Shown: positions 7,774 to 32,413 of the stretch, piece by piece | Position numbering within the stretch: the first letter of the stretch is position 1 | Layout of the letters: each line of letters opens with the position of its first letter | DNA from: Burkholderiales bacterium | Lineage (GTDB): Bacteria > Pseudomonadota > Gammaproteobacteria > Burkholderiales > Usitatibacteraceae | DNA: 34,899 nucleotides | Assembly: GCA_025360815.1 (NCBI GenBank) | Contig: JANYBL010000053.1 | Coordinates: forward strand, 1 to 34,899 | Direction: 5' to 3' | Translations under genes and position numbers: made by a program | Notes under the pieces: model-generated | Database searches by the model: none | What the model saw: the letters and a program-made list of their open reading frames with translations, nothing else | What the model was told of the DNA's origin: nothing

Positions 7774-8628
7774 GTGTCCGACTGCCTAGCTGTACTCCCG
7801 CAATACCTTCTGCCCAAACAAGCCCTAACCATGCTTGCCGGTAAAATCGCCGGCGCAAAAGCGGGCGGCTTTACAACACGCTTGATTCGCTGGTTTGTCG
7901 CCAAATATCAAGTCAACATGGCCGAGGCCGCCAACCCCGACATCGAAAGCTACGCCAGCTTTAACGAATTTTTTACGCGTCCCCTGCGAGAAGGCGCTCG
8001 GCCGTTGGCGCAAGGTGTCGGGGCTGATTTTATTTGCCCCGTCGATGGCGCAATCAGCCAATTTGGCGCCATCGAAAAAGATCAAATTTTCCAAGCGAAG
8101 GGCCATCACTATTCCACCACCGCCTTGGTCGGTGGTGATGCCGCGCTGGCGGCTCAGTTTCAGGACGGTCAGTTCGCCACGCTTTACCTAAGTCCCAAGG
8201 ATTATCATCGCATCCACATGCCCCATGATGGCCGCCTGACCCGTATGATCTATGTGCCTGGTGCGTTGTTTTCCGTCAACCCAACCACGGCTCGTGGCGT
8301 GCCAGGCCTGTTTGCGCGGAACGAACGGGTGGTGTGCGTGTTCGAATCGGATCGCGGCTCCTTTGTGCTGACGCTAGTCGGCGCAACGATTGTCGGCTCC
8401 ATGGCAACCGTCTGGCACGGTATCGTTAACCCGCCCCGCGGTGGAGCAGTGCGGGAATGGAAATATGAAGATCAAAACATTACCCTTAAAAAAGGCGATG
8501 AAATGGGACGGTTTTTATTGGGTTCAACGGTGGTGATGTTGTGGCCGAAAGATACAATGAAATTTAATACAGCGTGGGAGCCTGCAGGAGAAATACGGAT
8601 GGGCGAGGCGATGGGGCGCGATAGCTGA
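7774..8628 (+). CDS. psd: Phosphatidylserine decarboxylase proenzyme, membrane-bound bacterial type
   Basis: A 284-residue proenzyme that converts phosphatidylserine to phosphatidylethanolamine at the inner membrane. The LGST motif (Gly250-Ser251) is the self-cleavage site that makes the pyruvoyl group on the small subunit. Asp91 in PVDGAISQFG and His148 in YHRIHMP complete the processing triad, matching D90/H147/S254 of the E. coli enzyme. FFTRPLR and FARNERVV are also family motifs. The length and motif set are those of the long E. coli-like form; many Burkholderiales instead carry a short (about 214-residue) decarboxylase next to pssA. The start is a GTG with a weak GAGTGAAG upstream. The partner gene pssA is about 21 kb away on the other strand. 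Confidence 0.95.
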   Translation: MSDCLAVLPQYLLPKQALTMLAGKIAGAKAGGFTTRLIRWFVAKYQVNMAEAANPDIESYASFNEFFTRPLREGARPLAQGVGADFICPVDGAISQFGAIEKDQIFQAKGHHYSTTALVGGDAALAAQFQDGQFATLYLSPKDYHRIHMPHDGRLTRMIYVPGALFSVNPTTARGVPGLFARNERVVCVFESDRGSFVLTLVGATIVGSMATVWHGIVNPPRGGAVREWKYEDQNITLKKGDEMGRFLLGSTVVMLWPKDTMKFNTAWEPAGEIRMGEAMGRDS

Positions 8629-8654
8629 ACTCCGCGCCAGTACTAGTGTTTCAG
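8625..8654 (-). repeat. Dispersed TAGCACTGGY hairpin element, copy E
   Basis: On the minus strand: arm CTGAA, A, CAC, loop TAGTACTGGC, GCG, GAG, arm TTCAG. The outer arms pair perfectly; the inner triplet has one A-C mismatch (a G-T wobble if read as plus-strand RNA). The loop differs from the other copies at one base. It overlaps the psd stop codon and lies just downstream of the convergent EamA gene. Confidence 0.6.
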
Positions 8655-8668
8655 GCAGTTTCCTTTTT

Positions 8669-9655
8669 TCAAGCACCTGCGGATCCCACCCCAAGCTTGG
8701 GCGCGAATTTGGGTACAACCACCGTTACCAATCCCGCCCCCACAATCATCGCGCCACCCACCCAATCTTGCAGCCGCGAAACTTCGTTTGCCAAATAATG
8801 CGCGGCGACCGCGGCAACCACTAGCTCGAATAATAGAATCACCGCTGCATGATTTGCGGTCAGTTTGCTTAAGCCAAATTGCAGCGCAACGCTGGTGGAA
8901 ATGAGGATCACGCCAACGATAATGATGAGCAGCGTATGCGGTGCCGCGAGCGAGGCCCATTCATTTAAGTTTGGTCCCAAAAACAATGCCACGGGCAGCG
9001 AAACGATGAAAACGCCCATCGCACCGGCCAACGATTTCGCCTCCGGCGATATGTGATCGGCACCTTTCACCAACACATTGCATAGCGCAAACATGAACCC
9101 TGCCGAAAGTCCCAGCCATTCGTAGCCGTTCCGCGGTGCGGGGAGCCCCAGCTCGGGACGCCATAGCATCACGACCGCACCAGCCATCGCCAGCGCCATG
9201 GTTGCGTAGCCTGCGAGGGTCAATTTCTCTCGTAAAATCCATCGTGCCAGCGGTACGGTCCACAGCGGTGCCAAATAAAAAAGCAGCACAATTCGTAGCA
9301 CTTCAGCCTCCATGATGGCGACCAAATAAGACACATTCGACACCCCGATGGAGAGCCCAATCCCTAGCATCCACGCGGTGTTCCGACTGTTTTCTGTGTT
9401 GGAAAAAGCCGGAAATTCGCGCCAAGCGCGTCTGAAGACAATGCCGCCCACTGTAATCGACACGATATAAGTTAGCACCGTGGCAACCGGCGCTACCAAG
9501 CCATTGGCCTGCATGATGCGGTACGGATACCAGAGAATGCCCCACGACGTCGCGCCAATCAACAGCGCAAGAATTGGTTGGTACGTAGAGGTTGAATTTG
9601 ATGCGGAATGTGAAGAAGGAAGCGCAGACACGAGTGAGCCTTTATAATGAGCCAT
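8669..9655 (-). CDS. DMT superfamily transporter (EamA domain)
   Basis: About 328 residues with ten predicted membrane helices in two EamA repeats, the layout of drug/metabolite exporters. Repeat one starts with ILALLIGATSWGILWYPYR and ends with a P-L-W-T-V-P-L-A helix and WILREKLT; repeat two begins near NGYEWLGLSAGF and ends with ELVVAAVAAHYLANE, the usual EamA repeat ends. The substrate is unknown. Starts are ambiguous: the frame is open from a TTG at 9685, with ATGs at 9667, 9658 and 9655, and none has a clear ribosome binding site. It is divergent from dapD and converges on psd. Confidence 0.85.
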   Translation of the reverse strand: MAHYKGSLVSALPSSHSASNSTSTYQPILALLIGATSWGILWYPYRIMQANGLVAPVATVLTYIVSITVGGIVFRRAWREFPAFSNTENSRNTAWMLGIGLSIGVSNVSYLVAIMEAEVLRIVLLFYLAPLWTVPLARWILREKLTLAGYATMALAMAGAVVMLWRPELGLPAPRNGYEWLGLSAGFMFALCNVLVKGADHISPEAKSLAGAMGVFIVSLPVALFLGPNLNEWASLAAPHTLLIIIVGVILISTSVALQFGLSKLTANHAAVILLFELVVAAVAAHYLANEVSRLQDWVGGAMIVGAGLVTVVVPKFAPKLGVGSAGA

Positions 9656-9732
9656 CATTCTAACCATTCGGGTCCGCAGCAACAAACTGCATCAACGGAT
9701 CGCGTCAACAATAACCATGAAACAGACAGCAT

Positions 9733-10566
9733 ATGACCAACGATGAATTAAAAATGGTGATTGACAGCGCTTGGGAAGACCGCGCCAATTTAAACCCTAA
9801 CACCGATAACAATCATCTGCGCCAAGCGGTTGAGCACACCATCCAACAACTCGATTCCGGCCTGCTGCGCGTTGCTGAAAAAATCAACGGCGAATGGTTC
9901 ACCCATCAGTGGGCCAAAAAGGCCGTACTGCTTTCGTTTCGTCTTAACGACAATCAAGTGATGGCCGACTCTGCGCAACCTACCGTTGCGTATTTCGACA
10001 AAGTACCGACCAAATTTGCCAGCTACAGCGACGCCGATTTTAAAGCGGGCGGCTTCCGCGTAGTCCCCCCAGCTGTCGCGCGGCGCGGCGCGTTCATCGC
10101 CAAAAATGTCGTGCTGATGCCGTCGTATGTGAACATTGGCGCGTATGTTGATGAAGGCACGATGGTTGATACTTGGGCGACAGTCGGTTCTTGTGCGCAG
10201 ATTGGAAAGAACGTGCACCTGAGTGGTGGCGTGGGCATTGGCGGTGTGTTGGAGCCGTTGCAAGCGAACCCGACCATCATCGAAGATAATTGCTTTGTCG
10301 GCGCGCGTTCTGAAGTGGTGGAAGGCGTGATCGTCGGCGAGGGTTCGGTCATTTCGATGGGTGTGTTTATCGGCCAATCGACTAAAATTTATAATCGTGC
10401 GACTGGCGAGATAAGCTACGGTAAAGTGCCGCCATATTCAGTGGTAGTGGCGGGCAGCTTGCCGTCTGCAGACGGAAAATACAGTTTGAATTGCGCGGTA
10501 ATTGTGAAGCAGGTGGATGCGCAGACGCGGTCTAAAACCAGCATTAATGATTTGTTAAGAGCATAA
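9733..10566 (+). CDS. dapD: 2,3,4,5-tetrahydropyridine-2,6-dicarboxylate N-succinyltransferase
   Basis: A 277-residue cytoplasmic enzyme of the succinylase branch of lysine and meso-diaminopimelate synthesis; it succinylates tetrahydrodipicolinate using succinyl-CoA. The N-terminal helical domain contains IQQLDSG and FDKVPTKF. The C-terminal left-handed beta helix has hexapeptide repeats with [35 protein letters not shown] and [14 protein letters not shown], all typical of DapD trimers. The length is standard. It is followed by pilU after 60 nt. No other dap gene (dapC, dapE) is in the window. Confidence 0.97.
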
Positions 10567-10626
10567 TTTTTAACGATTTTTCAATACCAATACCCCACTT
10601 GTAAAGCCAACAAGGAGAAAAATAGC

Positions 10627-11769
10627 ATGGTGATTCTCGAAAAATTATTCCGCTTAATGGCTGAGAAAAACGCATCAGATATTTTTGTCTCGGCAGGGGC
10701 GGCGATCCATATCAAAATCAACGGCAATTCGATGCCAATCAATCCGCAATTGATGACGCCCGAAGATTGCAAACGGGTTTGCTATGAAATATTAAAGCCG
10801 AATCAAATTGAAAAATTTGAAAAAGAGTTGGAGTTAAATTTTTCTTATCCAATCATCGGCATCGGCAATTTTCGCGTCAACATGATGATGCAAAAGGCCA
10901 GTGTTGCTGCGGTGGTGCGCTTCATTAGCAACCAGGTGCCGCCGTTTGAAACGCTGGAACTGCCCAACGTCCTGCGTCAAGTGATTATGGAAAAACGTGG
11001 ACTGGTGCTGGTGGTGGGCGCGACGGGTTCCGGTAAATCGACGTCGCTGGCGGCGATGATTGATTTTCGCAATCAAATGAAAACTGGCCATATCTTGACG
11101 TTTGAAGATCCAGTCGAGTTTATGTTCACTTCGAAAAAATCAGTCATCAATCAGCGGGAAATCGGCACTGACTCCCATTCGTTTCACGACGCGATGCGCA
11201 ACGCATTGCGTCAAGCGCCGGATTGCATTTTGGTCGGCGAGATTCGCGATATTGAAACCATGAAAATGGCGATGATGTATTCGCTTTCCGGCCATCTGTG
11301 TTTGGCTACACTGCATGCCAACAATAGCTACCATGCGTTGAATCGAATTATCAATTTTTTCCCACTCGAACAGCGCGCCGTGCTGCTCGGCGATTTGGCT
11401 GTCGCGCTGCGTTGCATCATGTCACAGCGATTGGTGAAAAACGTCGAGGGCACACGCACGCCCACGGTAGAGATTTTGATGAATACGCAAAATATTGCCG
11501 ATCTGGTTGAGGAAGGGCGGGTATCGGAGATCAAAGAGGCGATGGAAAAATCGCTCACGCCGGGCTCGCAAACCTTTGAACAAGATTTATTCCGCCTAAT
11601 TAAAGCCGGAAAAATTTCAGTTGAAGAAGGCATGTTAAATGCCGATTCGGCCACTAACCTATCGCTGCTCGTCGGCAATAGCGGCATGATGGAATCATTT
11701 AAAGCCAGCGATCTGCCAGCCAGGCCAGGCTTGGGTGGGCCAAATTTTAGCGAATTTAAAATTAGCTAA
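10627..11769 (+). CDS. pilU: Type IV pilus retraction ATPase family, PilU-like
   Basis: A 380-residue hexameric motor ATPase of the PilT/PilU group that helps retract type IV pili from the inner-membrane base. The N-terminal PAS-like domain covers about residues 1-105. The Walker A motif GATGSGKST is at 131-139, the Asp box ILTFEDPVEF at 155-164, Walker B DCILVGEIRD at 199-208, and the His box HLCLATLHANN at 223-233. The length of about 380 and the extra C-terminal tail favour PilU over PilT (about 345). AAGGAGAAA precedes the ATG as a good ribosome binding site. It follows dapD by 60 nt, an arrangement I recall from Burkholderiales, where dapE often comes next; here dapE is missing. No pilT or other pilus gene is near. 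Confidence 0.9.
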   Translation: MVILEKLFRLMAEKNASDIFVSAGAAIHIKINGNSMPINPQLMTPEDCKRVCYEILKPNQIEKFEKELELNFSYPIIGIGNFRVNMMMQKASVAAVVRFISNQVPPFETLELPNVLRQVIMEKRGLVLVVGATGSGKSTSLAAMIDFRNQMKTGHILTFEDPVEFMFTSKKSVINQREIGTDSHSFHDAMRNALRQAPDCILVGEIRDIETMKMAMMYSLSGHLCLATLHANNSYHALNRIINFFPLEQRAVLLGDLAVALRCIMSQRLVKNVEGTRTPTVEILMNTQNIADLVEEGRVSEIKEAMEKSLTPGSQTFEQDLFRLIKAGKISVEEGMLNADSATNLSLLVGNSGMMESFKASDLPARPGLGGPNFSEFKIS

Positions 11770-12092
11770 GGATATAGTCGATATTGTCGTCTCGCTTGTT
11801 GCTGCCATTGTTCTTTCAGAACGCTAGCACTGGCGCGGCTTTCAAGGCGTTTCCAATATTATTCACCGCATTTCTGTACGTCGTGCCAAGCGCCAAATCC
11901 TAGATGCGCCGTCCGTGCGGTAGCGTCTCGTCCGCTAAATTGGTGGCGAAGCGTTAATCTCAGTAATCGCGATAACAGGCACGAAGAGCGTGTCGTTCCC
12001 GATTAGGTTGGCTCTCCAGCTGCCCGTTATTTCTTATCCTTTCGCTAGGTCGTCGCTTGATGACTGTTTATTGTTTGTCCCGGAGGTTCAAC
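11770..12092. other. Intergenic region downstream of pilU
   Basis: About 320 bases without a supportable gene. It contains repeat copy A (11819-11843), and the ribosome binding site GGAGG at 12082-12086 of the following gene. No U-run terminator was found after pilU. Confidence 0.6.
11819..11843 (+). repeat. Dispersed TAGCACTGGY hairpin element, copy A
   Basis: GAA, CGC, loop TAGCACTGGC, GCG, GCT, TTC: inner stem CGC/GCG and a partial outer stem GAA/TTC. It lies 50 nt after the pilU stop, on the same strand. Confidence 0.75.
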
Positions 12093-12701
12093 ATGCAACG
12101 ACGCATTCCCCACATCATCACAACGATCACGCTGGCGTTTGCAGCCACCGTGCCGACATCTGCCAATTTGGCCTACGCTGACAAGCCCGAATGGGCTGGG
12201 CAAAAGGAGGGCAGGGAAGGAAAGGAAGGTAAGGAAAATAAGCACGAGGGCAAGCACGAGAAAAAGGAGAAAAAAGAAAAAGGGGGAAATGACGAAGGAC
12301 GTTCAGAGCGCGGCCGCGACGGTCAGGATGACAGAGACGGTAGAGAAGGTAGAGGGGGACACCGCGATAGAGATGAAGATCGCCATGGCGACCATTATTT
12401 TACCGAACAACATCGCGTCGTAATCCGTGAATATTACGCTGAGCAATATCGCGAAAAGCGCTGCCCGCCCGGCTTGGCTAAAAAGAACAATGGCTGCTTG
12501 CCGCCCGGACAAGCCAAGAAATGGTTTGTCGGCAGGCCAATCCCGCGCGACGTCATCTACTATGAAGTGCCGCAACCGGTGGTGATCCGCCTCGGCCCAC
12601 CTCCCTCCGGTCAGCGCTATGTTCGTGTGGCATCCGATATTTTGCTGATCGCAATTGGAAGCGGTATCGTGCTCGATGCAATTAATGATTTAAATCGGTA
12701 A
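12093..12701 (+). CDS. CigR/RcnB-like exported protein with charged low-complexity region
   Basis: A 202-residue protein. Residues 1-29 are a Sec signal ending in ANLAYA before DKPEW. Residues 30-107 are a low-complexity stretch of Lys, Glu, Gly, Arg and Asp. The C-terminal domain has the pattern CPPGLAKK-N-GCLPPGQAKKW and then a hydrophobic end YVRVASDILLIAIGSG, which I associate with the RcnB family and with CigR, an anti-virulence protein in Salmonella; a role in metal homeostasis or in the envelope is only inference here. GGAGG at 12082-12086 fixes the ATG at 12093; an in-frame ATG at 12057 would add 12 residues without a binding site. The C-terminal hydrophobic segment could insert in a membrane. 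Confidence 0.8.
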   Translation: MQRRIPHIITTITLAFAATVPTSANLAYADKPEWAGQKEGREGKEGKENKHEGKHEKKEKKEKGGNDEGRSERGRDGQDDRDGREGRGGHRDRDEDRHGDHYFTEQHRVVIREYYAEQYREKRCPPGLAKKNNGCLPPGQAKKWFVGRPIPRDVIYYEVPQPVVIRLGPPPSGQRYVRVASDILLIAIGSGIVLDAINDLNR

Positions 12702-12712
12702 CGCCGTTTTGG

Positions 12713-12739
12713 GCATCCGTCCGTGTAACGGGTGGATGC
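12713..12739 (+). terminator. Imperfect hairpin after the CigR-like gene
   Basis: GCATCC and GGATGC pair around a second stem CCGT/ACGG with loop GTA. It lies 11 nt after the stop. There is no T-run, so a terminator role is uncertain. Confidence 0.4.
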
Positions 12740-12837
12740 TTCGAAAGGTAGGCTAGACGACTGGCTTTAAGCTTAGCAACTCGGGCAAGCATATTTTTGG
12801 TTACGGGACGTCACATTTAATTTATGATACCGATGCC

Positions 12838-12865
12838 CATCGATATTCAATCGATCGCCAATCGA
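12838..12865 (+). promoter_or_regulatory. Three phased ATCGA repeats before the triple-TonB_C gene
   Basis: CATCGA at 12838, CAATCGA at 12848 and CAATCGA at 12859 recur every 10-11 bases, i.e. on the same face of the helix, just upstream of the ATG at 12880. They may bind a regulator. Confidence 0.35.
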
Positions 12866-12879
12866 CAGAACAGGATTAA

Positions 12880-14940
12880 ATGAAAAATTCACTACGGCTC
12901 GTTGGTAACCGTTATCCTGCTGCCGAGCTTTGTCTAACGTTTTTTGCGGCCCTCACATTTTCTCTTGCGTCCGTATGGGCTTATGCGGAACCGACTAAAT
13001 TAATGACACTGCAAACTGTCGACGTTGACGGAAAAAGCACGAAAATTATTGAAGAAACTGATTCTCCAGGCACCGTTGCGAAGTCGATTTCGATCGGTGA
13101 AGAAATTAGGCTGTCGAAGATTTTAACCTCTGCAAAGACAGTGATTACTGTCCGTTCTCTCAACCATAATGTGATCCAATTAAACGGGGAGAGCCAGATT
13201 ACAGCGCCAATCGTGCATCGTGCAGGAGAGCGCTACAATCTAAAGCGAGGCAGCGCAGACTTTGATGTGACGGCGCCACTTAGTTTTTTTCAAGTGGAGA
13301 TTGATTCGGTCACGGTCAGTGCCCGGGACGCAAAATTCCACCTTGAACGTGTCGCAGGCGCCGATGGCGACGTCATACATGTTGATGTACTTCGCGGCGA
13401 AGTTTCTGTAGCTCGCCCTTTTGAAATTAACATTGCCAATGTTGCTGCCAAGCCAATTGTTGATATGAGCGAGTCATTGGCAATTACGCAAAGCGGCGCA
13501 TCAAATAGCCAATTCAGTAGCAAAAGGCCCACGCTAATTAAGTTTGAAAGCACCAACGCGGCAGAATTATTTTTTAAAAATTCTGTAGGCGTAGCTGTCA
13601 AATCAACCGAGCCGGACAAAATTCGCGATGCGCTCCTATCACGTGCCAGCTTTTTTTCCGGGTTGAATAAACATAAAGAAGCAATTGAAAGCCTAAATAG
13701 TGCCCGTCAATTTACGGTTAGCAATAATTATGCCCTGTACTCGATCATGATCAAATTGGGAAAGGAATATTCGTCGCTTGGAGATGCGTCAACCGCACTT
13801 CCTTATTTTGAGAACGCATTGTTTTTAGCTGAGAACGGCTACAGCGGGAGCGCAACACCGCTTTATCGCTTGTTGGCAGACTCATATACGAAACTACAAG
13901 ACGCTCCTGCCGCAGCGCGCTATTCGGCATTTGCAGAAGCATCCTCATTTAAAACTTCGAAAACTTCGCTAAATACTTATAAATTCCCAAGCGTTTTGAA
14001 ACGCCCACCCCCTGAATTTCCGACGAGCATGCGCAAACGAGGCTTGGATGGCGAAGTCGTACTAAAGGGAGTAATAACACCGGAAGGGAAATACGAATAT
14101 ATTCAAGTAACAAAAGCAGCGCATCCGGCCTTTGAAAAAGCGGCTGTAAGTGCTATGTTTGGAATCAGTATTGAACCAGCAACTCTTGATGGGAAACCTA
14201 TTCCGCAAGTAGCGCAAGTACCATTTAATTTTCTACTCACAGACGTTGGCAGATATGCCCGACCGGAAGTAGATCCAGATCGATCAGCGTACTACTTTCC
14301 CAAAGCACTACCCGAACAATATGATTTTGCGCCTGTCGTCCGTATCCTCTCCCTGCCAACATACCCTTATGACTTGGCGCTTGATGATCAGACTGGGAGC
14401 GCCGTCGTAACCGTAACGATTGATGCCACTGGCGAAGTCCGTGATGCAAAAGTCGTCGAGGCAAGCCAACCCGCTTTTGGCGAATCGTTAAAAGCGATGA
14501 TTCAAAATTGGAAGATTGAACCCGCGCTTAAAAATGGAAGGCCCATTTCGGTTCAGTTCAAGCATAAACATCGATTCAATTCGGAAGAGTGGAGCAATAT
14601 TATTAACAAGGAAACAAGCGCGCTAAAAACGAATATAAAATCTCACCCCGAGCGTATTTTCAGTTTTGACCAGCTCGATTCAGTTCCAAAATTGCTTTAT
14701 CAACCACAGCCCGTTGACACCCGTTCTGCCAGCGCTGTTAGCGCTACACCCGATAAAATTAAAATTGAATTTTTTATAGACCGCGAAGGCAGTGTTCAAC
14801 TACCGCGCACCATTAGCGCAACCAATACTGACTTAGCATGGTCCATCATGACGGTGATGAACCGATGGATATTTGAAGTGCCAAAAGTGAAGGGCGAACC
14901 AGTTTTCGCCAGACGGCAAATGATTTTTGAATATCCATAG
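12880..14940 (+). CDS. Periplasmic protein with FecR-like, TPR and three TonB C-terminal-like domains
   Basis: A 686-residue exported protein with an unusual layout. Residues 1-36 look like a long signal sequence ending in AYA. Residues about 65-185 resemble a FecR-type beta domain (ITVRSLNHNVIQLNGES, then LRGEVSVAR). Residues about 245-355 hold tetratricopeptide-like helices. Then come three TonB_C-like units: about 372-453 (PPPEFPTSMRKRGLDGEVVL to PFNF), 488-566 (LPTYPYDLALDDQTGSAVV to KHRF), and 600-686 (a weaker copy with IEFFIDREGSV and MNRWIFEVP). There is no N-terminal TonB transmembrane anchor with a proline-rich linker and no ExbBD nearby, so it is not a standard TonB. A role in envelope protein interaction or energy-independent scaffolding is only a guess. 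Codon use is more AT-rich than that of its neighbours. Confidence 0.75.
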   Translation: MKNSLRLVGNRYPAAELCLTFFAALTFSLASVWAYAEPTKLMTLQTVDVDGKSTKIIEETDSPGTVAKSISIGEEIRLSKILTSAKTVITVRSLNHNVIQLNGESQITAPIVHRAGERYNLKRGSADFDVTAPLSFFQVEIDSVTVSARDAKFHLERVAGADGDVIHVDVLRGEVSVARPFEINIANVAAKPIVDMSESLAITQSGASNSQFSSKRPTLIKFESTNAAELFFKNSVGVAVKSTEPDKIRDALLSRASFFSGLNKHKEAIESLNSARQFTVSNNYALYSIMIKLGKEYSSLGDASTALPYFENALFLAENGYSGSATPLYRLLADSYTKLQDAPAAARYSAFAEASSFKTSKTSLNTYKFPSVLKRPPPEFPTSMRKRGLDGEVVLKGVITPEGKYEYIQVTKAAHPAFEKAAVSAMFGISIEPATLDGKPIPQVAQVPFNFLLTDVGRYARPEVDPDRSAYYFPKALPEQYDFAPVVRILSLPTYPYDLALDDQTGSAVVTVTIDATGEVRDAKVVEASQPAFGESLKAMIQNWKIEPALKNGRPISVQFKHKHRFNSEEWSNIINKETSALKTNIKSHPERIFSFDQLDSVPKLLYQPQPVDTRSASAVSATPDKIKIEFFIDREGSVQLPRTISATNTDLAWSIMTVMNRWIFEVPKVKGEPVFARRQMIFEYP

Positions 14941-14945
14941 TGAGA

Positions 14946-14966
14946 GCGGGCTGACCCCATAAACGC
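14946..14966. repeat. REP-like CTGACCCCAT ... TAAACGC motif, copy 1
   Basis: CTGACCCCAT at 14951-14960 runs directly into AAACGC. The same two blocks recur at 34744-34764 separated by a few more bases. The reverse reading ATGGGGTCAG resembles short extragenic repeats often linked to Y1 (RAYT-type) transposases; this is family knowledge and not proof. It sits 10 nt after a stop codon, between convergent genes. Confidence 0.45.
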
Positions 14967-14992
14967 GCAGGTTTGCCGGATCGTTAGAAATA

Positions 14993-16126: not shown

Positions 16127-16275
16127 CTGCTTGCCCTGATTGGCGGTTTGTTGTGTCATGATATTTTTATGTGATTATTTTAGGTTGACGAATGAGAACG
16201 AGCGGAATAATGAGTTTCCAAGCGCGTTTCGCAAAGTTATATTAAGCGCATTTCTAAGTGAGCGGAACAAATGAC

Positions 16276-16300
16276 AAACTCTAGCACTGGTGAGGATTTT
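16276..16300 (+). repeat. Dispersed TAGCACTGGY hairpin element, copy B
   Basis: AAA, CTC, loop TAGCACTGGT, GAG, GAT, TTT: inner stem CTC/GAG and outer AAA/TTT. It lies between the divergent FabH-like and TesA-like genes. An ATG at 16271 would read through it, which argues for the later start at 16331. Confidence 0.75.
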
Positions 16301-16330
16301 CAGCCGTTTTTGCCCCGAAACGCCCGCCGA

Positions 16331-16924: not shown

Positions 16925-17025
16925 TTTGCGGGTGCCGATTCTGCAAAAGCCGATCATCAAAAACCGCAAACGAAGTTAAGCGCTGATCGGTAATATTGAA
17001 TTGTCGCCAAACTAACAGCCGCCGC

Positions 17026-22629: not shown

Positions 22630-22728
22630 CGAGATTTATGCGCCAGCAGTGACCACTGCGTTCCAACAGCGACCAATGCGTAATTTCATGTGGTCGAGGT
22701 ATGCGTTCATTAGAGGTCTCGCGTAGCC

Positions 22729-22753
22729 AAAACTCTAGCACTGGCGAGGCTTT
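22729..22753 (+). repeat. Dispersed TAGCACTGGY hairpin element, copy C
   Basis: AAAA, CTC, loop TAGCACTGGC, GAG, GC, TTT: inner stem CTC/GAG, outer AAA/TTT. It lies about 100 nt after the deacetylase stop and before the convergent isomerase. Confidence 0.75.
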
Positions 22754-22795
22754 CCAAAGGGTCTGTCAGCCGTTCCAAGCGCTGCGCCACAACGG

Positions 22796-23779: not shown

Positions 23780-23852
23780 GTGCGACCTCCAAAAATGATG
23801 CGTCCAACAAAACAGTATCAGAGATAAAACATTAACACTGTTGCGAATATGC

Positions 23853-23896
23853 AACGTCATAATTCGTTTAATGACATGTTTATCATAACGTCATAA
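23853..23896. promoter_or_regulatory. Repeated AACGTCATAA box between isomerase and TonB receptor
   Basis: The 10-mer AACGTCATAA occurs at 23853 and 23887, 34 bases apart, about three helical turns. A partial inverse, TTAATGAC, lies between (about 23868-23875). It lies in the divergent control region. Confidence 0.4.
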
Positions 23897-24058
23897 AATG
23901 AAACATTGGATTTTCGGGCTTTTCAGCGCGTTTTTCTGCCAGAGTATCGCCCTAGCAATTGCCATTTTACGTTTTTTACAACATCGTTTTACCGCTTCAC
24001 CCTCTCGGTTTTCATGTGCCTCGTCAAACCACCATCACCTCATCAGGGAGCTTTTTAT

Positions 24059-26401: not shown

Positions 26402-26438
26402 GCAAGATCGCTTTAGTTCACGAAGCAGAAAATCAAAG

Positions 26439-26470
26439 CGCCGCAGCCCGTCAAGGGCGCGGCGTTTTTT
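26439..26470 (+). terminator. Intrinsic terminator after the TonB receptor
   Basis: Stem CGCCGC/GCGGCG plus inner GCCC/GGGC with one bulged A and loop GTCAA, followed by six T. Confidence 0.92.
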
Positions 26471-26624
26471 GTTGCGCTATCGCCAAAAAAATTGCGCTCA
26501 AGAGGCCCGTCATGTCAAAATTAGCCTACTGAGCTTTGGCATACTCGATTTGAGTCGGTTGCCGATCACTATTGAAATCGTCTACGGATGATGGAACCCT
26601 GCATTCACAGCCGAAAGTCGTGCC

Positions 26625-28001
26625 ATGCGCCTGCCAATCGATCACCCCCAACGCTACATGCTCAACAACGAGATTCATGCCCGCGCCTCGCGGGAAGTTG
26701 AAGCGCCAGAGCAAATTTCGTTTTTAGCATTCACCTATTCGTCCGCGCATGTGGATGCACATGCGGATTCGGATTCTACTGCCGCTAAGGCGGCCTCGGC
26801 GAGCAGCCCCGCAATCGATATTGTGTTCGATGATCTATGCCGCCTATGTGAACTAGCCGGTGCACCGTCCCCACCACCCGGTGCTATGCATTTTCGCGCG
26901 CACCTCGGCCAACTGGAGTTGAATTGGGAACGGCACACAGAATTGGTGACCTATGCGTTTGGGCGGCGCATGGCTTTCGACCATCCTTTCAAATCGACCG
27001 CCATCCAACAGGTTCCCGAACTATGGCTCGACAGCGTTCGCGGCGAATTACTGGTGGGCATTCACCTCGCGGTACGTGATCAAGGTTTGGTAAAGCCCGA
27101 TCTCCGCGATGCAGCCGTAGATTTTTCCGGCAACTATCTGGTTGGGGCAAATGTGGGTAGTGATACCGCCATTGTGCTGACGGATTTTCGTATTCACGAG
27201 GATGGTTTCAGCCGCATGCTGTTGTTGGCTACCAAAATGGGAAAAGCCCAAGGCGGGCGTATTGTGCAGCGGCTGTTGGAGATCGAAACTTATCGCATGG
27301 CGTGCCTGCTGGCGCTGCCTGTCGCCCGCCAAGTCGTACAAACGGTGGCCAAGGCAGAGATTGAACTGGCGGCGCATACGAACGCATTGACCACCTCCGT
27401 CACCACATCGCCAAACTTTAACGAAGCCAACGATGAGGCTGCACTGCTCAAGCAACTCATCACATTGGCTGCCACCGTTGAAAACCAATTAGCAGCAACC
27501 AACTTTCGCTTCGGTGCGGCACGTGCTTACTACGCGCTCGTGAAACGGCGTATCGCTGAGTTGCGCGAGGAGCGATTGCCGGGCGTGCAAACCATTGAAG
27601 AATTTATGGAACGTCGCTTGGCCCCCGCCATGAACACCTGCGAGTCGGCCGCACAACGATTGTTTGATTTATCCGAACGTATCTCGCGTGCCAGTGCGTT
27701 GCTCAGAACCCGGGTCGATATTGAGCGCGAACAACAAAACCAAGCATTGCTAGCGTCAATGAACCGTCGCGCGAAAACCCAATTGCGCTTGCAAGAAACC
27801 GTCGAAGGCTTATCGATTGCGGCCATCATCTACTACGTGGTTGGCCTGATTGGCTACTTTGCGAAAGGCTTGAAAGCGGCCGATCTGCCGGTGAACCCCG
27901 ATATCGCAATGGCGGCGTCAATGCCGTTGGTGGCGGGATTAATATTGTTTGGACTTCGCCGTTGGCGTAAACGAAATGAATCGCAAAACGATGGCCGCTG
28001 A
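26625..28001 (+). CDS. DUF3422 family membrane protein
   Basis: A 458-residue protein of the DUF3422 family, recognised from the start DHPQRYMLNNEIHARASREV and the closing pair of helices (about 390-412 and 425-445). A long charged region contains coiled-coil stretches (about 270-380, rich in Glu, Arg, Leu). The C-terminal helices anchor it, with a large cytoplasmic N-terminal domain. Function is unknown. No operon partner. It converges on leuA, and two hairpins lie in the 168 nt between the genes. Confidence 0.85.
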   Translation: MRLPIDHPQRYMLNNEIHARASREVEAPEQISFLAFTYSSAHVDAHADSDSTAAKAASASSPAIDIVFDDLCRLCELAGAPSPPPGAMHFRAHLGQLELNWERHTELVTYAFGRRMAFDHPFKSTAIQQVPELWLDSVRGELLVGIHLAVRDQGLVKPDLRDAAVDFSGNYLVGANVGSDTAIVLTDFRIHEDGFSRMLLLATKMGKAQGGRIVQRLLEIETYRMACLLALPVARQVVQTVAKAEIELAAHTNALTTSVTTSPNFNEANDEAALLKQLITLAATVENQLAATNFRFGAARAYYALVKRRIAELREERLPGVQTIEEFMERRLAPAMNTCESAAQRLFDLSERISRASALLRTRVDIEREQQNQALLASMNRRAKTQLRLQETVEGLSIAAIIYYVVGLIGYFAKGLKAADLPVNPDIAMAASMPLVAGLILFGLRRWRKRNESQNDGR

Positions 28002-28061
28002 GTGCCGCTGAATTTTGCTGCCAAAGCTGCGTCCTGCCCGAATGGCTTTTTGGTGAAGATT

Positions 28062-28101
28062 GAGGATGAAATCGTCCAACACTGCCAGCGATTTCATTCT
28101 C
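28062..28101. terminator. Strong 13-bp hairpin between DUF3422 and leuA
   Basis: Arms 28062-28074 and 28089-28101 pair along 13 bases with a single G-T wobble and a 14-nt loop. No T-run on either side. It lies 60 nt after the DUF3422 stop. Confidence 0.5.
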
Positions 28102-28118
28102 ATTGGCCCGACACAAGA

Positions 28119-28147
28119 ATGCCCCGGGCGGATTGAGGCCGGGGCAT
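28119..28147 (-). terminator. Candidate terminator of leuA
   Basis: A perfect 9-bp stem ATGCCCCGG/CCGGGGCAT with an 11-nt loop, 22 nt past the leuA stop; the minus-strand tail is T-rich but weak (TCTTGTG). Confidence 0.55.
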
Positions 28148-28169
28148 GTTGGTACAGTTGTGGGCTTGT

Positions 28170-29705
28170 TTAATCCCCTTGCGGATTAACCCGATCATGC
28201 CGCGCGGCCATTTTATTTAGCGCGTTCAGATAGGCCTTGGCAGACGCAATCACGATGTCCGTATCCGAACCTACGCCGTTCACAATACGGCCATCCTTAG
28301 CGAGTCTGACTGTCACTTCTCCTTGCGAATCGGTGCCTTCAGTAACGTTATTCACCGAGTAGAGTTGTAGTTCTGCATGAGAGTGCAGAATTGACTCCAG
28401 CGCCTTGAATGTGGCATCAACGGGCCCAGCCCCTTTGGCCTCGCATTTGACTTCCTTGCCGTGATCGGCAATGACTAATTTCGCGTAAGGCTCTTCGCCG
28501 GTTTCCACGTGGGCTACCATCGAAACCAAACTGTATTGCTCGACTTCCGGCGTGACGGCTTCGTCCGACACCAGCGCATGCAAATCTTCATCAAAAATAT
28601 CGTGTTTTTTGTCGGCCAATTCTTTGAATTTTTTGAACGCGACATTGAGGGATGATTCACTTTCCAACACAATGCCCAATTCGCCTAAACGCGATTTGAA
28701 GGCGCTGCGCCCAGAGAGTTTGCCGAGTGTCAAGCGATTGGCATTCCAGCCCACATCTTGCGCACGCATGATCTCGTAAGTCTCGCGATGCTTCAGCACA
28801 CCGTCTTGGTGAATGCCTGATTCGTGTGCAAATGCATTCGCACCCACCACCGCTTTATTTGGCTGCACTGGATAGCCGGTGATGGTGGAGACCATCCGCG
28901 AGGCTGCCAGAATTTGCGTTGCATCAATTCGCGTTTCGACATTAAACAAATCTTTGCGGACCCGTACCGCCATCACGATCTCTTCAAGCGAGGCGTTGCC
29001 CGCGCGCTCGCCTAAACCATTGATCGTACATTCAACTTGTCGCGCACCCGCCTGCACAGCGGCTAGCGAATTAGCAACGGCCATGCCGAGATCATTGTGG
29101 CAATGGGTTGACCACACGGCTTTATCCGAATTTGGAATGCGGCTGAGCAGCTGGCGGAACCGTTCCGCCCATGCGTCGGGAATCGAATATCCCACGGTAT
29201 CGGGCACGTTGATGGTTTTTGCGCCGGCATTGATAACAGCCTCAAACACGCGACATAGAAAATCCATATCGGACCGCACCGCATCTTCAGCCGAAAACTC
29301 AACATCATCGGTAAGCGTTCGCGCGAATTTCACCGCATCAACCGCCGCCACCAATACTTGGTCTGGTGTCATGCGCAGCTTGTGCTGCATGTGGATCGGC
29401 GAAGTGGCAATAAAGGTATGAATGCGGCCTTGTGCAGCGGGTTTGATCGCATCACCTGCTTTTTGAATATCGCCCACTTGCGCACGGGCAAGCGAGCAAA
29501 CAGTAGAATCGCGCACTGCCGTCGCCACCGCTTGAATCGCTTCAAAATCACCTTGGCTCGCGGCTGCGAAGCCAGCTTCGATCACATCCACTTTCATTTT
29601 TTCCAGATGCTTGCCAATGCGAACTTTTTCCTCTTTCGTCATCGAAGCGCCGGGGCTTTGCTCACCATCGCGCATGGTGGTATCAAAAATGATTAACTTA
29701 TCCAT
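28170..29705 (-). CDS. leuA: 2-isopropylmalate synthase
   Basis: A 511-residue enzyme that condenses acetyl-CoA with 2-oxoisovalerate, the first step committed to leucine. The TIM-barrel motif [15 protein letters not shown] (residues 8-22) and [13 protein letters not shown] (metal and catalytic residues) are intact. The C-terminal LeuA allosteric domain (about 390-505) is present, so leucine feedback is expected. AGGA precedes the ATG. Upstream (29706-29972) lies a leader region with a leucine-rich peptide. In many Burkholderiales leuA lies in one cluster with ilv, psd and pssA genes; here it is inverted and about 20 kb away from ilvC. Confidence 0.96.
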
Positions 29706-29744
29706 AAAAATCCTAACTATTCAACAAGAGGCCAAAACCGCGCT

Positions 29745-29759
29745 CACCTCAGTGAGGTG
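29745..29759 (-). terminator. Hairpin in the leuA leader (candidate attenuator)
   Basis: CACCTC and GAGGTG flank a 3-nt loop, followed on the minus strand by GCGCGG and a short TTTT. The GCGCGG (29738-29743) could instead pair with CCGCGC (29811-29816) at the end of the leader peptide, giving two exclusive structures. The assignment of terminator and antiterminator is inference. Confidence 0.4.
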
Positions 29760-29804
29760 TGCAAACGATAAAACGAAAATACAGCAAAATGGGGGTGTGG
29801 GGGG

Positions 29805-29888
29805 TTATGTGCGCGGCGTGCGCAGCAGCAGGCCTAGAGCTAGGCTGGCAAGAAGAGTTTCAATAAACGGTACAGACGAACATCGCAT
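29805..29888 (-). CDS. leuL: Leucine-rich leader peptide upstream of leuA
   Basis: A 27-codon frame from ATG 29888 to TAA 29805. Residues 12-22 hold seven leucines (codons CTT CTT ... CTA ... CTA ... CTG CTG CTG), including a final run of three. Such a leucine run just upstream of leuA is the hallmark of transcription attenuation by leucyl-tRNA supply. A -10 box lies directly before it, so the A of the ATG falls at the expected transcription start; there is no room for a Shine-Dalgarno sequence, so the peptide may be translated from a leaderless mRNA. The gene is too short for ordinary ORF calling. The CCTAG/CTAGG inverted repeat in the leucine codons may form a pausing hairpin. Confidence 0.72.
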   Translation of the reverse strand: MRCSSVPFIETLLASLALGLLLRTPRT

Positions 29889-29894
29889 GACAAG

Positions 29895-29923
29895 AATATA
29901 GCGTGAAGTGTTTATTTTGACAA
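29895..29923 (-). promoter_or_regulatory. Sigma-70 promoter of the leuA leader
   Basis: On the minus strand TTGTCA (29918-29923) and TATATT (29895-29900) are separated by exactly 17 nt. The predicted start falls on or next to the ATG of the leader peptide at 29888. Confidence 0.75.
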
Positions 29924-29972
29924 GCGTCCGGTGCTGATAATGCAAGCGGTACCAGGCAATCGCCGGCTTAGT

Positions 29973-30788
29973 TCATTCTGAAGTAGGTGGTTTTGGTTCC
30001 GCGGGTTGCGCCTGCTCGGGCGGCTTTGCTACGCGCGGTTCGTCACCACGCACCATCTCGACAGCCGCGATAAAATAACCCGATAGCGCATAGCAAATAA
30101 ACAAACCAAACAGCACCTTCGCAGGATCAATCGTCACCACTAAATAGCCCACCAAAATCGCCGGCACGACCCAAAACGGCACGCTCTTGCGGAGGTTAAA
30201 CTCTTTGCCGCTGTAGAACTTGATGTTGGTCACCATTGTCACACCGGCAAAAACAGTCATGCCCCACGCGAGCCAATTGACATCGTTGCCGACTACGCCG
30301 TGATCGTTGAGCACCCAAATCATGCCCGTCACCAGCGCAGCGGCAGCGGGGCTCGGGATTCCCTGAAAATATTTTTTATCAATGATGCCGATGTTGGTGT
30401 TGAACCGCGCGAGCCGCATCGCCGCGCAGGCCACATAAATAAACGCCGCCACCCAACCCCATTTGCCCATCGGCTTCAGCGCCCATTCGTACATAATGAG
30501 CGCGGGTGCGGCACCAAACGAAACCATGTCCGAGAGCGAATCAAACTGTGCGCCAAAATCGCTTTGCGTACGCGTCAAACGGGCAACACGGCCATCTAAA
30601 CCGTCCAACACCATTGCCACAAAGATAAACATACAAGCGCGTTCAAATTGGCCGTTCATGCCCTGCACAATGGCGTAGAAGCCCGCAAAAAGCGCCGCTG
30701 CCGTGAACAAATTCGGCAAAATATAAATGCCCTTGCGGCGACGTTCCGGGTCGAGCAAGCCTTTTTTCTTTGGAGTGATGACTGACAT
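29973..30788 (-). CDS. pssA: CDP-diacylglycerol--serine O-phosphatidyltransferase
   Basis: A 271-residue inner-membrane enzyme from ATG 30788 that makes phosphatidylserine, the substrate of Psd. The CDP-alcohol phosphatidyltransferase motif is complete: DGLDGRVAR, eight residues, then G-AQF-D-SLS-D. Eight hydrophobic helices fit the type II PssA of most bacteria. The open frame extends to 30926, but the family N-terminus (Lys-rich, then RRRKGIYILPNLFTA) argues for 30788. A Pro-rich acidic tail closes the protein. leuA follows after the leader region, on the same strand. Confidence 0.94.
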   Translation of the reverse strand: MSVITPKKKGLLDPERRRKGIYILPNLFTAAALFAGFYAIVQGMNGQFERACMFIFVAMVLDGLDGRVARLTRTQSDFGAQFDSLSDMVSFGAAPALIMYEWALKPMGKWGWVAAFIYVACAAMRLARFNTNIGIIDKKYFQGIPSPAAAALVTGMIWVLNDHGVVGNDVNWLAWGMTVFAGVTMVTNIKFYSGKEFNLRKSVPFWVVPAILVGYLVVTIDPAKVLFGLFICYALSGYFIAAVEMVRGDEPRVAKPPEQAQPAEPKPPTSE

Positions 30789-30864
30789 TGGGCGTAAACG
30801 AACTTTCAAAAGTGGTGAATTGACTGTGCCGCCGCGATCATGATGCAGCCACAATGATACTGCC

Positions 30865-30902
30865 ACGAGACTGTAGCTACGAGGCTGTAGCCATGAGACT
30901 GC
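30865..30902 (+). repeat. 14-bp tandem repeat, about 2.7 copies
   Basis: Units ACGAGACTGTAGCT, ACGAGGCTGTAGCC and ATGAGACTGC follow one another in the 300 bases between pssA and the phosphatase gene. Otherwise I see nothing there except the divergent control regions. Confidence 0.65.
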
Positions 30903-31090
30903 TATTCCGTGCTGCATACCGTACACTTTGCTTGCATCTTTACTGCATTCTAGCGTAACGACCCTTGTCGGGGGTTAGACCGACATTTCAGGCGACAAGC
31001 TGCCGCAAGCAGACATCGGCGCGACCGTTGTCAAAGCATATTGTTTTTCAACCGACGCTCAATTTTTTAATCTACCGCAGGGCGACCACC

Positions 31091-31882
31091 ATGCAGCGAT
31101 TGCCATTTTATTTTCCCAATAAGCGCGCTCGTCAGTTCGCCGCTGGTTTGCTTGTTGTTCTCATTGAATCGACTGCGTTTTGTGCTCAAGCCGCACCGCC
31201 CGAGGCACTTCCCGACGCACTTCCGCCCCCGACACTGACACCGACACCGCCTTCGCCAGGAACGTCGGCGGTGCAAGCAAGCAACCATTGCCGCAACAAC
31301 CTTCAATCACCCATCATCAATTTTTGTGAAGTCGCGCCCAATACCCTCTGGCGCGGTGCGAAGCCGGATGAAGAGGGCGCCGCTTGGCTGGTGGCGCATG
31401 GCGTTCGCACGGTCGTCAATCTGGAGCTGATGCATGATGACCTTGCCAATTTTGGTGCCGCGAAAAACGTCGATCCGAATGCCCCGCCGATAAAAATCGA
31501 CATTCAATATTTCCGTCTTCGCGATTGGGAGCCGCTGGCCATTTTCGTACCAGCGCTAACCGATCAACACGTTGTGCAATTCTTGGCCATCATGAAACAA
31601 AGCCCGAAGCCTGTTTACGTACACTGCCGCTCGGGACAAAACCGCACCGGTGTGATGGTCGCGGCCTATCGGCTCCTGATTGAAAACGCCGACCTTGAAA
31701 AAACAATTGCGGAGATGAAGCACTATCACGGCTTTTGGTCGTTCGCGGATTCGCGTTACCTGCGCGATTTAGTCAAGCGGCGCGATGCTGTGTTGCGGCA
31801 AGCCGATATGAACACGCCCAAACGAGACGCGACGATTAGCTGCAGCGACAGCATCTGCAAGATCGAGCCGCTCGATCCTTAG
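31091..31882 (+). CDS. Exported dual-specificity/tyrosine phosphatase
   Basis: A 264-residue protein with a Sec signal (about 1-34, ending CAQA) and a proline-rich linker (about 36-57). The catalytic loop HCRSGQNRTG (Cys179, Arg185) is the CX5R signature of Cys-based phosphatases. The order of strands before it (TLWRGAKPDEEG, VRTVVNLELMH) is that of the dual-specificity/tyrosine phosphatase fold, and Asp145 could be the general acid. A periplasmic phosphatase of this type may act on phosphoproteins, phosphoinositides or nucleotides; that is open. The frame is open from 30965; ATG 31091 gives the signal peptide. Confidence 0.85.
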   Translation: MQRLPFYFPNKRARQFAAGLLVVLIESTAFCAQAAPPEALPDALPPPTLTPTPPSPGTSAVQASNHCRNNLQSPIINFCEVAPNTLWRGAKPDEEGAAWLVAHGVRTVVNLELMHDDLANFGAAKNVDPNAPPIKIDIQYFRLRDWEPLAIFVPALTDQHVVQFLAIMKQSPKPVYVHCRSGQNRTGVMVAAYRLLIENADLEKTIAEMKHYHGFWSFADSRYLRDLVKRRDAVLRQADMNTPKRDATISCSDSICKIEPLDP

Positions 31883-32072
31883 CGTCCGCTACGCATTCGA
31901 CGCTCTTCTGTCTGCGCCATCAACGCAATGCCGCATCGTGAAGTGCGATCAGAGGCACGATCAAGGGAAAAAAGGCGCGACCTGAGCGGTGGGGGGTAGG
32001 GTGCGATATGGAGGAGGTAGGGCGTGAAAAACGTGATGGCCCATCGCGAGTGGGTTGCGGTATAGTAATGCC

Positions 32073-32366
32073 ATGAGTTCAGCCCACCAACCACCTAAAC
32101 CCCAATCGGCTCCGACTATGTCCGCACCACAAACTGGCGACCACGCTGTTCAAGCGTTGGCGACAAGTATTTATATTCAACTCGTCAAAGAGGCCGTCGT
32201 GATTGACGCTACCCACAAAGTCTCCATCAGCGTCGATCCCGCGGCGCTCGCCAAACTAAGTTATGTCTTGGCCGAATCGTTCATCGATACGGGTGAAGCC
32301 ATCAAAGCCAGCGCCAAGCCAAAAACCGAAGTGTTCGACGTGAATAAGATGGATTTCGGCATTTAG
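32073..32366 (+). CDS. Hypothetical 97-residue protein
   Basis: Starts at ATG 32073 (the frame is open from 32055). A polar, Pro/Gln-rich head (MSSAHQPPKPQ) is followed by a helical region (about 25-75) with AVQALATSIYIQLVKEAVVI. No membrane helix or known motif. TATAGT at 32061-32066 lies 6 nt before the ATG, so this may be a leaderless transcript, but no -35 match was found at the right distance. Repeat copy D follows 19 nt after the stop. Confidence 0.6.
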   Translation: MSSAHQPPKPQSAPTMSAPQTGDHAVQALATSIYIQLVKEAVVIDATHKVSISVDPAALAKLSYVLAESFIDTGEAIKASAKPKTEVFDVNKMDFGI

Positions 32367-32384
32367 GTTTTGCGATCACAATTG

Positions 32385-32413
32385 CCAAACGCTAGCACTG
32401 GTGCGGTATTTGG
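32385..32413 (+). repeat. Dispersed TAGCACTGGY hairpin element, copy D
   Basis: CCAAA, CGC, loop TAGCACTGGT, GCG, GTA, TTTGG: the best-paired copy, with perfect inner (3 bp) and outer (5 bp) stems and a 3-nt bulge. It starts 19 nt after a stop codon, same strand. Confidence 0.8.

Follow-up and report, generated by a model that had tools for sequence, protein, structure and literature searches.

Five copies of a repeat in the window

The window, a stretch of 34,899 nucleotides from a genome of the Burkholderiales (G000), contains five copies of a repeat whose unit is a 20-bp core, AAACTCTAGCACTGGCGCGG, within a looser 36-bp motif with the consensus CCAAAC-TCTAGCACTGGCGCGG-CGTTTGAGGCATTT. The copies are listed with the score of the core, the score of the slot for an inverted partner, and the bit score of the model.

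8617..8654 (-), core 8632-8651: copy E, in the 40 bp separating the convergent genes of a phosphatidylserine decarboxylase and an EamA-family protein; core 29.8, partner slot -43.4, model 24.5 bits
11816..11853 (+), core 11819-11838: copy A, core 49 bp past the stop codon of a gene for a type II/IV secretion ATPase (Pfam T2SSE); core 30.8, partner slot -45.4, model 34.4 bits
16273..16310 (+), core 16276-16295: copy B, between the divergently read genes of an ACP synthase III-like and a GDSL lipase-like protein; core 31.7, partner slot -12.6, model 32.3 bits
22727..22764 (+), core 22730-22749: copy C, between the convergent genes of a polysaccharide deacetylase and a cyclophilin-type isomerase; core 33.2, partner slot -37.1, model 31.2 bits
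32384..32421 (+), core 32387-32406: copy D, core 20 bp past the stop codon of a short predicted gene; core 34.1, partner slot -57.8, model 36.2 bits

The inner end of copy E overlaps the final codons of the decarboxylase gene. The secretion ATPase gene upstream of copy A is presumably PilT/PilU-like, and the short gene preceding copy D has no Pfam match. Exact TAGCACTGG occurs on the plus strand at 11825, 16282, 22736 and 32393, with a chance expectation of 0.06 in the window. The original prediction had named these four copies and a fifth on the minus strand, and all five were found in place. The ten-base loop that it called invariant is however constant in only four of them, because the fifth copy reads TAGTACTGG at 8637-8645 (-). 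Its description of the gene context was correct: copies A, C and D follow plus-strand genes, copy E follows a minus-strand gene, and copy B lies in a divergent gap. No Rfam family reaches its gathering score in the window, which is consistent with the statement that no named element of this kind is known. A second inverted arm is absent from all five copies (partner scores -12.6 to -57.8); given the value of -12.6, a trace of a partner is possible at copy B.

Copy number, distribution and arrangement of the motif

Throughout the 3.74 Mb of G000, 218 copies of the motif were found with at most three mismatches, compared to 15 for the reversed pattern. With at most two mismatches the numbers are 104 and 1, so that 114 copies stand against 14 controls at exactly three mismatches; the excess is thus graded by similarity to the consensus. 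The ten-base loop alone shows no genome-wide excess (39 versus 35). The motif is therefore not a random repeat, as had been predicted, and many more copies exist than the five of the window. The model, for which 42 rows were collected (one was excluded from its alignment but kept in the score matrix), gave at least 135 matches in G000, with 150 of 2961 candidates scored. The copies are split evenly between the strands (110 forward, 108 reverse, over 129 contigs of arbitrary orientation), and regular spacing was not seen in 50 gaps on 29 of the 129 contigs, where the distances look Poisson. According to gene calls made with our own codon-score finder, 30 of 110 copies lie within genes, on either strand, although the coding share of the loci is 81%; the predicted preference for intergenic sites is thereby borne out. 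The extended consensus of the others is also largely shared by the copies within genes. In gaps between tandem genes, 27 copies run along the gene direction and 18 against it.

A search of 61 genomes found many copies only in one genus, that of Betaproteobacterium UKL13-2. With at most two mismatches, its 13 genomes contain 4 to 495 sites, the latter in the richest congener, and the 48 other genomes 0 to 2 (their controls 0 to 6). There are 83 to 178 sites in G000, G004, G006 and G011, and 169 in G012; the contig scan across genomes comprised at least 114 stretches, and its counts are lower bounds. This survey of the genome and its relatives, which the original prediction had proposed together with a count of positions, was decisive. 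Single matches in records of Bacteroidales, Duganella, Hyphomicrobiales and Sulfuricellaceae are close to chance (4 by our own estimate), and none of seven matches in viral contigs has an inverted partner. A 400-kb sample of the low-copy genome G003 contains other, longer repeat families, with no second short dialect obvious; in 240 kb of G010 no repeat as strong as those of G003 was seen.

The arrangement of the motif differs between species. For G000, 116 half-sites were defined by a core score of at least 15 in loci around search matches, a subset of all copies; 111 of them lack an inverted partner and 5 are paired. In G002, 130 of 153 half-sites are paired, and in sister species the motif occurs mostly as inverted pairs at one fixed spacing of 46 bp. 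Half-sites at other distances exist as well, which might flank an autonomous parent element. Five genomes have many exact pairs (G001, G002, G006, G011, G012), and eight have almost none. The paired shares of G001, G006 and G011 mean little, since their loci were mostly fetched by the pair pattern itself; the loci of G002 and JAJAYN came mostly from a single-core scan. Of three G004 copies, one is paired. The distribution of pairs is in keeping with an unrooted tree of 12 species (G006 left out), calculated from two proteins that were chosen because they bear the motif. Pairs of G002 lie at a median of 16 bp from adjacent 3' ends, and 64 of 68 do not overlap called genes. None of 199 paired half-sites belongs to a pair that lies wholly within a called gene. 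In the sister species, two inverted copies at the 46-bp spacing make a true long hairpin: the mean folding energy of pairs is -39.5 kcal/mol, and -17.9 kcal/mol after a single mononucleotide shuffle of each pair (n=98). The outer flanks of pairs are T-rich (3.1 T per 8 nt), and variants at core position 5 tend to be the same in both arms (z 4.3). Of the unpaired G000 copies, 17 of 111 score between -20 and 8 in the partner slot, which is possibly the remnant of a lost partner.

Folding of single copies and origin of copies within genes

The original prediction had suggested a folded RNA or a protein-bound hairpin on account of compensatory changes and a constant loop. The combinations G-C and T-A do occur at the inner pair of copies A to D. 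Over the 111 partnerless G000 copies, however, this position is a Watson-Crick match in 26% of cases versus 25% after shuffling, and the commonest combination is T with C (34/111). The outer arms, which had been thought to pair, do so only at the level of shuffles (z 1.0 to 1.4), RNAalifold yielded no consensus structure for 41 copies, and folding of the window copies is within the range of their shuffles (z -1.1 to +1.5). Compensatory change is thus not borne out, and a folded RNA with covariation was rejected. Recognition by a putative protein is still likely, with the motif read as sequence. The hairpin reading was plausible but wrong, and rested on five copies.

Two genes that contain the motif were compared closely across the genus. 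In the prolyl-tRNA synthetase gene, no gap occurs at the motif site in 12 species, i.e. that of the window plus 11 relatives (for G006 there is only a fragment), nor in comparison with PDB chain 5ucm. The site is motif-like in G000, G005 and G007, decayed in G004, and absent in eight. The site in the Methyltransf_28 gene is likewise gapless in 12 species (again its own and 11 relatives; G006 has no match); G000 and G005 have the motif exactly, G004 and G007 nearly so, and eight species lack it, and residues of the protein were altered to fit the motif. Since both sites are gapless across 12 species, sequence comparison indicates that the motif arose in these two genes by substitution: point changes, not an insertion, gave rise to it.

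Comparisons at other loci gave a mixed picture. In an RluC-like gene the core is gapless relative to G010, and a 9-nt indel lies at its outer edge. The protein of L344 has a 13-residue gap over the site in comparison with a G012 sequence of 40% identity, and that of L069 a 14-residue gap in comparison with a paralogue of 29% identity. An RlmI-like protein exceeds PDB chain 3c0k by 5 residues; ValRS is 7 residues longer than its G002 counterpart, but only 1 residue longer than 1gax. The copy of L341 adjoins a 36-nt length difference. Between genes, some sites are longer by 85 to 143 bp and others shorter, so that the differences go in both directions; element-sized differences were found for L295 versus five species, L191 versus L171, and L219 versus L456.

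A candidate uptake label and its alternatives

It is tentatively proposed that the motif is a sequence-specific DNA recognition motif, driven most likely by biased uptake of self-DNA in natural transformation. We infer a binding protein, uptake, and use as a terminator. A putative outer DNA receptor would favour fragments with the motif, so that alleles approaching it would be imported more often, a molecular drive as proposed for the uptake sequences DUS and USS. By mutation and recombination, a few hundred copies per genome would build up on both strands, between genes and wherever genes tolerate them. In the species of the window the usual unit would be a single half-site, in the sister group an inverted pair of half-sites with a fixed 46-bp spacing; the pairs of G002, mostly placed just 3' of stop codons, may form hairpins that also terminate transcription. 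It is rather doubtful that the genus, betaproteobacterial and outside the Neisseriaceae, has independently evolved a self-specific uptake system in two forms, a single asymmetric 36-bp site and a phased 46-bp inverted pair, where the switch would confine a coding-tolerant label to gene ends and let it double as a terminator.

Uptake sequences are well known in two families, the Neisseriaceae (DUS) and the Pasteurellaceae (USS), and neisserial inverted DUS pairs near gene ends act as terminators. The motif resembles them in having numerous copies dispersed over both strands, in and between genes, a conserved core with looser flanks including T tracts, a similarity-graded excess, forms that may follow the species tree, and inverted pairs near gene ends. 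Like uptake sequences, it arose in place by point changes in the two genes compared closely. USS have been correlated with minor-pilin sequences (PpdA/ComN) in PMC12616744. In contrast to DUS and USS, it is longer and much sparser, its host belongs to neither family, and its pairs are held at exactly 46 bp and are the rule in some sister species. Genomes with DUS or USS contain thousands of copies according to PMC3630211, a density reached neither by the 218 copies of G000 nor by the 495 of the richest congener. According to PMC1939737, uptake sequences are not palindromes and some 10% of them stand in inverted pairs, whereas G002 is mostly paired. ComEC, the sole transformation gene tested, is present in 12 of 13 genomes of the genus and was also matched in 10 of 14 control genomes; it occurs in species with few copies, and no match was obtained in G012 (80% complete, 169 sites). 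Low density, Poisson spacing, this distribution of ComEC, the pairing in G002, paired half-sites kept out of genes, the lack of an obvious second dialect in the G003 sample and the less fitting cases of L344, L069, RlmI, ValRS and L341 speak against uptake. No literature linking DNA uptake sequences with Burkholderiales was found, and titles among the matches listed for the ten-base core string were unrelated.

Selection might instead act on the function of an intracellular DNA-binding protein that organises or segregates the chromosome or forms a roadblock at gene ends. The same core occurs in species in which the PilT/PilU-like protein shares only 73-94% identity with the one encoded in the window, the exact phasing of pairs fits a protein complex, the G002 pairs sit 3' of stop codons, and a gapless origin within genes fits equally well. 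We nevertheless consider this unlikely: neither a strand excess (on arbitrarily oriented contigs) nor non-random spacing points to a positional role, and a range from 495 to 4 copies among congeners is odd for a housekeeping site. A folded RNA in the 3' regions of mRNAs, or an RNA hairpin bound there by a protein, or a terminator, would account for the strong folding and T-rich outer flanks of pairs and for their after-stop placement in G002; with single copies that show neither covariation nor a folding signal, orientations of 27 to 18 in tandem gaps, and 30 of 110 copies in genes on either strand, it is very improbable.

A REP/REPIN-like palindrome, mobilised by a transposase and leaving single copies as halves of decayed pairs, is considered just as unlikely as an intracellular protein site. 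It would agree with inverted pairs of variable inner sequence as in REP dimers, species-specific copy number, the shared arm variants, the possible partner remnants, the element-sized differences at L295, L191 and L219, and the gap in the L344 protein; the pairs near 3' ends recall the REPs described in PMC3733652. One motif pair lies 33 bp behind the stop of a RAYT gene in G002 (199 bits to NF047646; 4er8, E 7.6e-41). That case lost weight because this RAYT has its own flanking GTAG repeats, of the CGTAGGGCGGACCAGTCCGCC type, with the pair further out; the RAYTs of G002, G008, G012 and G005 are all closely flanked by other, GTAG-bearing inverted repeats, and none is flanked by the motif alone. 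The motif consensus has neither a GTAG nor a CGTC tag. No relative of the G002 RAYT was found in G000, G004, G006 and G011 despite their 83 to 178 sites, and the only RAYT-like gene of G000 is cut by a contig end, scores 66.5 of the 80 bits of the family cut-off and lacks the motif in its available flank. Matches to the motif (E<=0.001) in 5 of 30 Y1-transposase loci are roughly what density predicts by our own estimate. Of 48 tests for target duplications one gave z 3.7 and the rest stayed below 2.5 in size, none reproducibly; the closely compared coding copies are gapless, and intergenic lengths differ in both directions. That the motif is a REP/REPIN is therefore not shown, the genuine RAYTs of the genus having other repeats. 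In G001, elements were also seen behind RAYT-like genes, at 43 and 148 bp. IS200 genes as movers were dismissed, with no match above the model threshold around L061 and L062 and one weak match (score 11.5) in L061.

Rickettsia palindromic elements are repeats within protein-coding genes that keep frames open and are described as inserts. Copies of the motif also lie inside genes in open frames, but both genes compared across the genus (2/2) show no change in length, unlike perhaps L344. The Rickettsia elements are named in PMC3733652.

If biased uptake of self-DNA is the correct reading, the genus would represent a further uptake lineage, in which congeners with many, few or paired copies would allow a fresh test of the drive model and of receptor coevolution. 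The two forms in sister species are a natural comparison. Even with an internal recogniser, a long DNA site built by substitution in conserved genes, at the price of changed residues, would be unusual.

Over-representation of the motif and the proposed hairpin

The original prediction of five hairpin copies with a constant loop stood in part. The window contains four exact TAGCACTGG sites, where 0.06 are expected; the loop is not constant, as the fifth copy has one change. Window positions 33935-34687 hold a gene end with what we take, from its translation, to be an RHS-repeat-type motif. TAGCACTGGY, the loop by itself, is not enriched genome-wide (39 sites versus 35 for the reversed pattern); over-representation appears, in the window and in the whole genome, only once its flanking bases are included. 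The longer motif AAMKCTAGCACTGGYGMGG has 218 sites in the whole genome at up to three mismatches, compared to 15 for the reversed pattern. This excess is graded by similarity, with 104 sites versus 1 control at up to two mismatches and 114 versus 14 at exactly three. A sequence-only model built from 41 copies yielded at least 135 sites at E ≤0.001, with 150 of 2961 candidates scored. Copy spacing, examined in 29 of 129 contigs, looks Poisson. The repeat is real and of greater interest than a five-copy hairpin.

The predicted covariation of the inner stem pair (G-C or T-A) fails. Among the 111 copies of the source genome (G000) that lack an inverted partner, this pair is Watson-Crick in 26%, versus 25% after shuffling, and its commonest combination is T with C; pairing of the outer arms is at the shuffle level (z 1.0 to 1.4). 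RNAalifold found no consensus structure in 41 copies, and the five window copies are no more stable than shuffled sequences (z -1.11 to 1.51).

Single and paired forms within the genus

We searched 61 genomes (the source genome, 12 of its genus, 15 of the family and 33 of the order) at up to two mismatches. The 13 genus genomes contain 4 to 495 sites each; the 48 others contain 0 to 2, their reversed controls 0 to 6.

Sites at up to two mismatches and exact pair patterns in G000 and 12 other genus genomes. The reversed pair pattern occurs once in G011 and in none of the others.
Motif-rich genomes
G002: 495 sites, 48 pairs
G011: 178 sites, 7 pairs
G012: 169 sites, 21 pairs
G006: 139 sites, 6 pairs
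G001: 109 sites, 4 pairs
G000: 104 sites, 1 pair
G004: 83 sites, no pair
G005: 59 sites, no pair
G007: 48 sites, no pair
Motif-poor genomes
G009: 16 sites, no pair
G010: 6 sites, no pair
G003: 5 sites, no pair
G008: 4 sites, no pair

Among 298 strong half-sites in the collected loci, 184 are matched on the opposite strand by a partner offset by exactly 46 bp, and three more by one at 45; no other offset within 140 bp reaches three cases. Partners accompany 5 of 116 half-sites in G000, 130 of 153 in G002, 22 of 30 in G012 and 21 of 25 in MAG CAN_BIN11 (JAJAYN). The 26 bp separating paired cores are variable in sequence and constant in length. Between the arms of 98 inverted genus pairs, core position 5 alone matches clearly above shuffled arms (z 4.3), position 3 doing so more weakly (z 2.5); the very centre is a non-palindromic A or T tract. 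Single G000 copies are conserved out to position +33, approximately the centre of a pair, and not beyond. At the expected partner position, 94 of the 111 partnerless G000 copies score below -20; the 17 scoring between -20 and 8 are perhaps remnants of pairs.

An unrooted tree of 12 species, based on two proteins, groups G001, G011, G002 and G012, and likewise G003, G008, G009 and G010, with both groups separate from G000, G004, G005 and G007. The paired form fits this tree imperfectly: one of three G004 copies inspected has a partner.

G003 also contains other repeats. In a 400 kb sample (L431-L450), the separate CTAGCCTGAANATTTCATGGG family has 41 matches at up to four mismatches versus 0 reversed controls, often as inverted pairs of variable inner length; it has one match in 240 kb of G010, and the samples of G000 and G002 contain no match. 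A longer, MITE-like repeat with conserved flanks around GGGACACGTACCCAGTGTACGGCGAG has 16 copies in the 400 kb (L431-L434, L436, L438, L440, L443, L444, L447-L450). At about 8200-11700 (per-strand offsets) in locus L441, 291-bp units that contain CTGTCATTCCGA and GAGGAATCTCATCC are repeated in tandem.

Placement and origin of copies within genes

Called genes overlap 34 of the 107 G000 copies that were tested; the remaining 45, 21 and 7 lie in tandem, convergent and divergent gaps, respectively; 30 of 110 (27%) are inside well-scoring genes. Over most of the extended consensus (-3 to +32) these in-gene copies agree with the other 75 unpaired copies; position +25 differs. In G002, four of 68 pairs overlap a called gene, and the median distance is 16 bp from the adjacent 3' end versus 90 bp from the adjacent 5' end. 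For none of 199 paired half-sites does the whole pair lie within a called gene.

Two in-gene loci were compared across the genus. The prolyl-tRNA synthetase and Methyltransf_28 genes are each gapless at the motif site in 12 species (for the synthetase, the own and 11 relatives). In the synthetase gene, G000, G005 and G007 carry the motif or a close approach to it, G004 has a decayed version and eight species lack it. In the Methyltransf_28 gene, G000 and G005 match the motif exactly and G004 and G007 nearly, eight species are without it, and the protein changes from RQQQ to RQTQ in G000, G005 and G007, as the motif requires. Compared with G010, an RluC-like gene has an ungapped core, at whose outer edge lies an indel of 9 nt; a presumably acetyltransferase-like gene has its motif site in common with a named MAG. 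At the motif site, an RlmI-like protein has five residues more than PDB chain 3c0k; ValRS, whose motif is common to G004, has seven more than in G002. A gap scan of 24 in-gene proteins against collected loci revealed, over the motif site, a gap of 13 residues for the L344 protein relative to a G012 sequence of 40% identity, and one of 14 residues for the L069 protein relative to a paralogue of 29% identity; the L341 copy adjoins a 36-nt length difference. Because these last five cases are less clear or contrary, origin by substitution is shown for two copies and not for all.

Transposition, protein binding or DNA uptake

A REP element mobilized by a REP-associated tyrosine transposase (RAYT) was considered. 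G002 carries a true RAYT with CGTAGGGCGGACCAGTCCGCC-type repeats of its own close on either side; RAYTs in G008, G012 and G005 are flanked by other inverted repeats with GTAG. G000, G004, G006 and G011 contain no relative of the G002 enzyme, an absence that weighs less for the incomplete G006 and G011 assemblies. One RAYT-like gene of another subfamily in G000, cut by the contig end, scores 66.5 bits (cut-off 80) and has no motif copy in its sequenced flank. Motif matches at E ≤0.001 occur in 5 of 30 Y1-type transposase loci. With other repeats flanking the RAYTs of G002, G008, G012 and G005, and no relative of the G002 enzyme seen in four genomes, a link of the motif to a RAYT is not established. 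Loci L307, L308, L309 and L310 hold RAYT genes with 36-46% identity to the G002 gene, and a GTAG-containing inverted repeat of its own flanks each of them. RAYT genes of G001 are fragments, some with stops; two RAYT-like genes of another subfamily there are followed, after 43 and 148 bp, by motif copies (L260:2212-2247 and L269:1038-1069), a proximity that may be due to chance.

A mobile element appears unlikely; it gains a little, and the uptake reading loses a little, from the gap seen for the L344 protein and the pairing of one G004 copy. Copying is a possible source of the pairs: some intergenic sites are 85 to 143 bp longer with the element (L295 versus five species; L191 and L219 versus one each), but others are not longer where it is present. 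An internal binding protein recognising the motif explains most of the data as well.

We tentatively favour an uptake-sequence-like DNA label, somewhat short of an even chance. Biased uptake of self DNA, the molecular drive outlined in PMC1939737, would build up sites through substitution in genic and intergenic DNA alike. Substitution origin, genic and intergenic sites, restriction to one genus and forms broadly tracking the tree are as such uptake predicts; the graded excess fits too, although decay would look similar. PMC1939737 places 65% and 35% of uptake sequences of two species in reading frames, compared to 27% here. Counted against uptake are the low density and Poisson spacing, the occurrence of ComEC in low-copy species too and the failure to find it in G012, no sign of a further dialect in G003, and the fact that palindromic pairs predominate in certain species. 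Uptake-sequence dialects are described in PMC3630211. That the genus has a further, independently evolved self-specific uptake system, with single and paired (46 bp) forms, is rather improbable, yet it may be so.
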